From: an uncultured Mycoplasma sp.
Lineage (GTDB): Bacteria > Bacillota_I > Bacilli_A > Mycoplasmatales > Mycoplasmoidaceae
NCBI GenBank assembly: GCA_947648205.1
Contig: CANSNC010000001.1
Coordinates: 1 to 64,000, forward strand
Length of the DNA stretch: 64,000 bases
Direction of reading: 5' to 3'
Shown here: positions 40,212-42,284 of the stretch, in pieces
Layout of the letters: the number at the start of each line of letters is the position of its first letter
Position numbering within the stretch: position 1 is the first letter of the stretch
Translations under genes and position numbers: made by a program
Notes under the pieces: model-generated
What the model saw: only the letters and a program-made list of their open reading frames with translations
The model's database searches: none
What the model was told of the DNA's origin: nothing

Positions 40212-40481
40212 ATGTCAAGAAGTTCTAAAAAAGGACCATATGTTGAAGATAGTTTAATGAAAAAAGTTCAAAATATGGTTAAGCAAGAAAAAAAGAAACC
40301 AATAAAAACTTGATCAAGAAGAAGTACCATTTTCCCAGAATTTGTTGGTTTAACATTTGAAGTTCATAATGGTAAATCATTTGTTAATGTTTATGTAACT
40401 GAAGATATGATTGGTCATAAATTAGGTGAGTTTGCATCAACTAGAAACTTTAAACAACATACAGGAAATAGAAAAGATTAA
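40212..40481 (+). CDS. rpsS: 30S ribosomal protein S19
   Basis: An 89-aa S19, standard length, located in the head of the small subunit near the A-site finger. Signatures: [18 protein letters not shown] at the start, [14 protein letters not shown] (with a TGA Trp), and [17 protein letters not shown] near the end. AAAGGAA precedes the ATG by 11 bases. It lies between rplB and rplV in the normal order. Confidence 0.98.
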
Positions 40482-40492
40482 GGGGTATTGAA

Positions 40493-41467
40493 ATGAAAGC
40501 TAGAGCAATACAAAGAAATATTCACCTATCTCCTAGAAAAGCAAAATTAGTTTGTGATTTAATCAGAAATAAAAAAGTTACAGATGCATTAGTTATGTTA
40601 GAACAAGTGCACAAAAAAGCTGCACCAATTATTAGTAAGCTTCTTTCATCTGCAATGGCAAATGCTACAAATAATCATGCAATGAGTGCTGAAAAATTAT
40701 ATATTTATCATATAGTTGCTAATCAAGGATCAACATTAAAAAGAACATCACCTAGAGCAAAAGGTTCTGCTGATTTGATTAGAAAAAGACATTGTCATAT
40801 AGAAATTATTCTTTCTGATGATGTTAATGAAAGAAAAAAAGATTTAGATGCAATAAAGCAACTAAAAGCTAAAAGAGCAAAAAATAATAAAGGTTATTCA
40901 GCAAAACAAAGAGCTGGATTAGCTAAAAAGTCTAAAAATAAATTAAATGTTAAAAAAGATGTTGTTAAAAAAAATAATAATGATAAGCCAGTTGTAAAAA
41001 ATAAAGTTGATGCTGAAACTTTAAAAAGAGAACAACAAGTTTTAAAAGTTGTTGATACTAAAACAAGCAATGATAAACCAGAAATTATTACTACATCAAT
41101 TATTATGATTTCAGCGTCTCCTAAGCATGCAAATTTATTATTAGATGATCCATCTAAAAATGTTTTATTTTATAAAGTAACTCCAACAAATAAAGTTGAA
41201 AGAGTTTTAGTTTATGCAACTGCACCAGTTAGTGCTGTGATTGGTGAATTTGATTTATCTGAAATAAAAATTTCTGATAAATCAACATCATGAACTAAAT
41301 ATGCTAGCAAATCAGTATTTACAAAAAAAGAATTTGATGAATACTATCATGAAAAACATGAAGCTCATGCAATAGTAGCAAGTAAATCTTTTAGATATAG
41401 TAAGCCAAAGAGTTTAAAAGATTACAATATGTCTAAAGGCCCTAGTGGTTTCCAATATTTGAAATAA
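40493..41467 (+). CDS. rplV: 50S ribosomal protein L22 fused to an ASCH/PUA-like domain
   Basis: A 324-aa L22; the family has about 110-120. Residues 1-112 are normal L22 (RNIHLSPRKAKLVCDLIR, then SPRAKGSADLIRKRHCHIEI) which lines the exit tunnel. Residues 113-200 are a Lys/Asn-rich linker. Residues 202-324 look like a complete ASCH-type (PUA-like fold) domain: IIMISASPKHANLLLD, VERVLVYATAPVSAVIGEFD, a KKEFDEYY segment, AHAIVASKSFRYSKPKSL and GPSGFQYL, in the order seen in stand-alone ASCH proteins, a fold linked to RNA binding. AAGGGG lies before the ATG. The extension is in frame with no stop. M. pneumoniae L22 also has an extension, but this domain is not known to me there. Confidence 0.9.
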
Positions 41468-41483: not shown

Positions 41484-42284
41484 ATGGGACAAAAAGTAAA
41501 TCCTAATGGATTAAGAATAGGTATTAATAAAAATTGAGAGTCTAGATGAATTGCAAAAGATAATAAGCAAACAGCAAAATGACTTGTTGAAGATGATAAA
41601 ATTAGAAAATACCTAATTAAATCTTTTAAAAATGCTCAAATTTCAAATGTTGAAATTGAAAGACATCAAAAAAGTATTGATTTATTTATTAACTGTTCTC
41701 AACCAGGAATTTTGTTGGGAAAAGAAATGAGTACTTTAAAAGTAATTAAAAAACAAATTAATTTAATTGTTGGTAGACATATAAAAGTTAATGCTAATGT
41801 AATTGCACTAGATAACCCATCATTAAGTGCAAGAATTATTGCAAGAGAAATTGCTGATGCAATTGAAAATAGAGTTTCTTTTAGAAATGCTCAAAAATTA
41901 GCTATTAAAAAAGTTTTAACTAATGGAGCTAAGGGAATTAAGACTCATGTTTCTGGAAGACTTGGTGGAGTTGAAATGGCAAGAGAAGAAGGATATTCTG
42001 AAGGTATTGTTCCTTTAACAACATTAAGAGCAGATATTGATTATGCATTAGAAGAAGCTTTAACAACATATGGTTTGATTGGAGTTAAAGTTTGAATTAA
42101 TAGAGGTGAACTTTTTGGTAAAGGAGTTCATTCAACAAATAAAAATATTCAAAGTAAACCAAAATTCAATTCAGATCAAAAGAATTCTAATGGTAATTTC
42201 AATAGAAAATTTGATAATAAAAAACAACAAAATGCTAAACCAAATGCAAATAAAAAATTTGTAAAAAAAGAAAAATCAAATTAA
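41484..42284 (+). CDS. rpsC: 30S ribosomal protein S3
   Basis: A 266-aa S3. The N-terminal KH domain and the C-terminal domain ([29 protein letters not shown]) that helps form the mRNA entry channel are intact. The last 45 residues are an added Asn/Lys-rich tail beyond the usual 215-230. GAGGTG precedes the ATG. Two to three TGA Trp codons lie near the start (NWESRW). Confidence 0.97.

Follow-up and report, generated by a model that had tools for sequence, protein, structure and literature searches.

An ASCH-derived C-terminal module on several ribosomal proteins and on ATP synthase alpha in Malacoplasma and Ureaplasma

The ASCH superfamily (PF04266), whose original description is said to be that of Iyer, Burroughs and Aravind, is recognized by an ASCH/PUA-like beta-barrel fold and a GxKxx(E)xR signature. 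Whole globular domains are rarely gained by ribosomal proteins. In eukaryotes, the ubiquitin-ribosomal protein fusions, with an N-terminal ubiquitin that is cleaved, place one small domain on several ribosomal proteins; they differ from the fusions described here in the N-terminal position and in their unrelated fold, and the fusions described here are not known to be cleaved. The closest structurally characterized relative is ZmASCH, an ASCH ribonuclease from Zymomonas mobilis (PDB 5guq/5gus), in which mutagenesis identified Tyr47, Lys53 and Ser128 as key residues and simulations place Tyr47 and Tyr90 in contact with RNA (PMC5615036). YqfB, an ac4C amidohydrolase, uses a Thr24-Lys21-Glu74 triad together with Arg26 (PMC6972931). 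In Mycoplasma pneumoniae, a related mycoplasma, L22 and other ribosomal proteins are extended; the available part of that report describes extensions that lack order for the most part, those of S6, L22 and L29 having some secondary structure, and contains no description of a globular ASCH domain (PMC9534751). The NCBIfam entry NF008917 (PRK12279.1), "50S ribosomal protein L22/unknown domain fusion protein", has the same architecture as the L22 examined here.

We analyzed a stretch of 64,000 nucleotides from the genome of an uncultured Mycoplasma sp. (the window). By gene order (L2-S19-L22-S3-L16-L29) it contains an ordinary S10-type ribosomal operon, in which the L22 gene encodes a protein with a long C-terminal extension (Table 1). 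The single in-frame TGA, read as Trp267 in Mollicutes code 4, corresponds to a tryptophan that is invariant in all 18 aligned fused copies of the domain. The core places the protein within bacterial uL22 above both the Pfam and the TIGRFAM cut-off: PF00237 covers residues 5-108 (6.8e-35, 119.8 bits, cut-off 28), and TIGR01044 matches with 8.7e-30 and 103 bits (cut-off 73.65). It is the only L22 core found in a search of the entire genome, and the fusion is seen again in independent assemblies, including single-contig genomes. Within the window, the module profile detects no further copy. It finds none in the downstream rpsC, unlike the S3 orthologues of other Malacoplasma. In genomes with a second host downstream of L22, distances had pointed to L29 as that host, but translation showed it to be S3. 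The window L29 (rpmC, 42702-43208) is itself long, with about 160 aa compared to the usual 65-70 and a K/S/N-rich tail, which is free of the module.

Table 1 Features of the L22 gene and its neighbors in the window.
Feature	Position	Strand	Details or evidence
uL22-ASCH-fold gene	40493-41467	+	324 aa, genetic code 4
uL22 core, residues 1-112, normal bacterial L22	40493..40828	+	PF00237, TIGR01044
Lysine-rich low-complexity linker, residues 113-171	40829..41005	+	Charge, model pLDDT, selection
Conserved linker motif VDAETLKREQQVLKVV, residues 172-187	41006..41053	+	Alignments; predicted short helix
Short variable spacer, residues 188-200	41054..41092	+	Alignment gaps; pLDDT ~49
ASCH-fold domain (predicted), residues 201-324	41093..41464	+	Profile, structure, alignment; terminates exactly at GPSGFQYLK
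TGA codon for Trp267, within ASCH-fold domain	41291..41293	+	
rpsS (S19), upstream neighbor in S10-type ribosomal operon	40212..40481	+	Gene order
rpsC (S3), 266 aa, without module here	41484..42284	+	Module profile: no match

The original prediction knew of no described L22-ASCH fusion. The fusion itself is already known and catalogued under PRK12279, where the domain has no name: NF008917 aligns residues 1-324 of the window protein with model positions 1-311 (3.6e-126). The score of 420.6 bits lies below the curated cut-off of 526, which the L22 of a Ureaplasma-group genome (G094) exceeds with 635. In a cross-match test with loci L034, L032, L039, L042, L036 and L049, the PRK12279 model also matched the tails of S3, S20, S16 and AtpA (7.5e-32 to 3.4e-90), as well as one ASCH protein that stands alone (2e-16). 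If the NF008917 cut-offs were relaxed, the L22 label could be given wrongly to these tails. No description of the module or of its S3, S20, S16 and AtpA hosts was found in the open-licence papers searched, within which neither what the domain is nor its occurrence on other hosts appears to have been described.

Profile and model evidence far beyond chance indicates that the L22 tail is a real folded domain of the ASCH type. The motifs quoted in the original prediction are all present in the 324-aa open reading frame, and its central claim, that residues 202-324 are ordered and ASCH/PUA-like and not filler, held up in both profile and fold analysis. A profile of the 18 fused copies matches ZmASCH (5gus/5guq) with an E-value of 1.2e-13. 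AlphaFold2 predicts the module confidently from 15 sequences (mean pLDDT 89.5, pTM 0.84). Foldseek matches it to the ASCH fold (E 1.5e-09), and ZmASCH is the best solved structural match (Z 16.3, 24% identity, 123 residues superposed with an rmsd of 1.6 Å). Stand-alone relatives in the Mycoplasmoidaceae connect the module to recognized ASCH proteins: four of five exceed the PF04266 gathering score, the fused family aligns with them at an hhalign probability of 99.6 (E 2.7e-24), and a search with one of them recovers both copies of the window's genome (3e-11 and 3e-9).

The direct Pfam search that had been proposed gave no ASCH match to residues 201-324 at E≤1, and an AtpA copy of the module likewise gave none at this threshold; we attribute the miss to the GxKxxExR signature, which all 18 fused copies lack. 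Sub-threshold Pfam hits of the tail to DUF365 and Lactamase_B_6 were dismissed as chance. The module thus has the ASCH/PUA-like beta-barrel fold and common descent with proteins above the gathering score, and it has neither a direct gathering-score match nor the signature, so we class it as an ASCH-derived offshoot and not as a canonical ASCH protein. The stand-alone relatives (L045, L049, L050, L051) are homologous to it over their full length; they differ in keeping GxKxx(E)xR and PPQSF and in passing the Pfam ASCH model.

A survey covering 95 family genomes and 320 from the order revealed that the module is a travelling C-terminal unit and not a part specific to L22. Named records link the two genus groups concerned to Malacoplasma and Ureaplasma. 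In the window's genome (G000), the only bS20 gene found, rpsT (Pfam S20, 2.6e-16), ends in a second copy, which lies 862 bases outside the window. Curated models, in addition to those for L22, identify the other hosts as S3 (TIGR01009), S20 (TIGR00029), S16 (TIGR00002) and the F1 ATPase alpha subunit AtpA (TIGR00962). The module is located on uL22 in nine genomes (G000, G022, G023, G024, G030, G085, G086, G088 and G094), on uS3 in G022, G023, G026, G029, G030 and the named Malacoplasma/Mycoplasma MAGs L091-L093, on bS20 in G000, and on bS16 in G090, a Ureaplasma-group genome. AtpA is the host in G085, G088 and G094, where the copies are genuine F1 alpha genes within atp operons (770 bits to TIGR00962 in G094), with a divergent one in G020. 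The second copy of G086, cut by a contig edge, presumably also belongs to AtpA. L22 is accordingly paired with S20 in G000, with S3 in G022, G023 and G030, and with AtpA in G085, G088 and G094. At least one ribosomal protein carries the module in all ten Malacoplasma genomes searched, although which protein varies, and in the Ureaplasma group it occurs in five of ten genomes. The L22 fusion recurs in both groups. Several Malacoplasma (G026, G029, L091-L093) bear the module on S3 with none on L22. Outside the Mycoplasmoidaceae, among the 320 genomes of the order, module matches fall in reading frames of stand-alone size.

All copies share one layout: host core, a variable linker of 48-277 aa, an LKREQxxLKVV-like motif, a spacer and the domain of about 124 aa, which in every end listed terminates exactly at GPSGF[QTR]YLK before the stop codon. 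The linker motif is predicted to form a helix (AlphaFold2 pLDDT ~83); its E, R, E and L are invariant in alignments of the L22, S3 and AtpA copies. The motif accompanies the domain, so the unit that moves comprises both. In the window L22, the 86-residue linker has a net charge of +16, with a predicted helix at its start (residues 111-132) and predicted disorder in the remainder. Linkers of ribosomal proteins are mostly basic; those of AtpA (-14 to -42) and S16 (-34) are acidic. The charge of the module itself is +1 to +10 whatever the host. A full-length L22 model from six sequences has a good core, but pLDDT drops to values under 50 at residue 134 and beyond, and the module is not confidently folded in it (pTM 0.38), so we make no claim on how the module docks onto L22.

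The fused copies have a common origin: they lie on one side of a branch separating them from the stand-alone ASCH clade (support 100/99). Within them, the Ureaplasma AtpA copies stand apart from the L22 copies, and the L22, S3, S20 and S16 copies of Malacoplasma are mixed together. The L22 and S3 modules of G023 are 98% identical at the protein level with a dS of 0.31, which indicates recent copying or conversion. On the ribosomal protein tree, the L22 module is patchy, and species lacking it sit beside species that have it. Several branches are weak in both trees, and we claim neither the number nor the direction of host changes.

Signature and pocket positions were compared with those of ZmASCH (residue positions in ZmASCH numbering, checked against PMC5615036; 18 fused copies, five stand-alone relatives). 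The stand-alone relatives retain Gly25, Glu30, Arg32, Gln127 and Ser128 almost always. In contrast, all five positions are replaced in every fused copy: Gly25 by Asp, Glu or Asn, Glu30 by hydrophobic residues, Arg32 by Tyr, Phe or Leu, Gln127 by Ser and Ser128 by Gly. Tyr47 and Tyr90 are present in 18 of 18 copies, Thr49 in 16, Lys27 in 15 and Lys53 in nine, with Ser at this last position in the window protein. Of the three residues key to the ZmASCH ribonuclease, only Tyr47 is therefore constant, and from these substitutions the module does not look like a working ribonuclease of this type, although the whole fold and part of the pocket are retained. ZmASCH differs also in that the module is the C-terminal part of other proteins. 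In the GxKxxExR region, which by the signature would correspond to the YqfB site, the Glu and Arg are changed in all fused copies. Some leftover catalysis could conceivably persist, given the retention of Lys27 and Thr49.

We infer from the partly retained pocket that the module binds something. The kept Tyr47 and Tyr90 positions and the net positive charge suggest a nucleobase-like ligand, RNA or a shared protein partner. RNA binding is possible, though weakened by the loss of the signature and of most residues that contact nucleic acid in ZmASCH. Most likely, the module has a single origin in an ASCH protein that stood alone, within the Malacoplasma/Ureaplasma branch of the Mycoplasmoidaceae; it would then have lost the signature and the likely catalytic residues, and would have been copied repeatedly to the C-termini of abundant proteins (uL22, uS3, bS20, bS16 and F1 alpha). 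It would now be a non-catalytic binding domain for a ligand or RNA that a long flexible tether keeps at the ribosome surface and, in Ureaplasma, also at F1; we give this mechanism about an even chance. Display at ribosomal abundance would be what counts, not attachment to L22 in particular. All identified Malacoplasma hosts are ribosomal proteins, of either subunit, and the simplest reading is that display and not position is selected. A role confined to ribosomes is at odds with the AtpA hosts, which widen this reading to abundant complexes generally.

A further possibility is a dedicated ASCH-derived display or docking tag that moved between ribosomal proteins and ATP synthase, with ribosomes and F1 sharing a partner or ligand, which we consider conceivable but doubtful. 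If true, the tag would be a lineage-specific ribosome add-on of wall-less bacteria with an exchangeable attachment point. In a more explicit form, which seems to us rather unlikely, the module would bind one common cytoskeletal, membrane or nucleoid partner and thereby position ribosomes and the Ureaplasma F1 ATPase. A single partner would account for both kinds of host, and the flexible tethers and the C-terminal GPSGFxYLK, invariant in all ends listed, are consistent with it.

The abundance of the hosts, the long disordered linkers and the free nearest relatives would suit a ribosomal protein gene acting as a high-expression carrier, from which a protease would free the ASCH domain to serve as a separate protein or as a folding aid for the ribosomal protein. 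We think this unlikely: a common cleavage site is not evident in spite of the linker motif being conserved with the domain, and one strong gene would do, whereas in many genomes a second fused copy has been retained.

A nearly neutral passenger, spread by recombination in low-complexity linkers and tolerated at exposed C-termini, could explain the patchy host distribution and fast-evolving copies such as the S3 copy of G026. It is nevertheless very improbable. Between copies on the same host, module dN/dS is 0.04-0.26 and, for six pairs out of eight, lower than linker dN/dS, and the domain is maintained by purifying selection. In such pairs with dS below 0.6, modules have values of 0.04-0.24, host cores 0.01-0.06 and linkers 0.07-0.28; in the window L22, too, purifying selection is weaker on the linker than on the core. 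Across all hosts, 25 columns are invariant, and the occurrence in every Malacoplasma genome searched also argues against a passenger.

The surface end of L22 lies near the tunnel exit, as established by ribosome structures. The original prediction proposed that the domain could have nascent-chain, mRNA or regulatory RNA as its target on the exit side of the 50S subunit. In favor of this are the location of L22, the ASCH fold and the L22 extension of M. pneumoniae, which is ordered on the ribosome (PMC9534751). We find the proposal most improbable and largely refuted by host turnover, since the module is common to 30S proteins (uS3, bS20, bS16) and ATP synthase alpha, is found on S3 in several Malacoplasma species that have none on L22, and hangs on a flexible linker of about 86 aa that leaves its location unfixed.

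Display of a binding domain on abundant complexes, the reading we prefer, leads to the question of what role requires the module on the ribosome, yet at no fixed place. It is unusual for one domain to move among as many as four ribosomal proteins, from both subunits, as well as ATP synthase alpha. The "unknown domain" of the catalogued L22 fusion can now be named, and small-genome bacteria thereby have a species-specific ribosome part.

Several loci seen in the survey have unusual features of their own. The bS16 protein of G090 (L042:2928-4376; 477-483 aa) has a 277-aa acidic linker ahead of the module. In G020, a 497-aa proline/glutamine-rich protein with no Pfam hit (L046:2625-4115) ends in a divergent module. 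Standard F1 operons have no gene between atpA and atpG. The Ureaplasma-group atp operons and G020 encode an extra protein of about 190-295 aa with an apparent transmembrane segment at this position (L039:2836-3639, L041:2671-3555, L043:3010-3831, L047:2681-3259). A genome of another family (G247, L100) contains three identically scoring genes for stand-alone ASCH proteins (C1:39052, 347614 and 414655), which suggests a recently multiplied, possibly mobile, locus.
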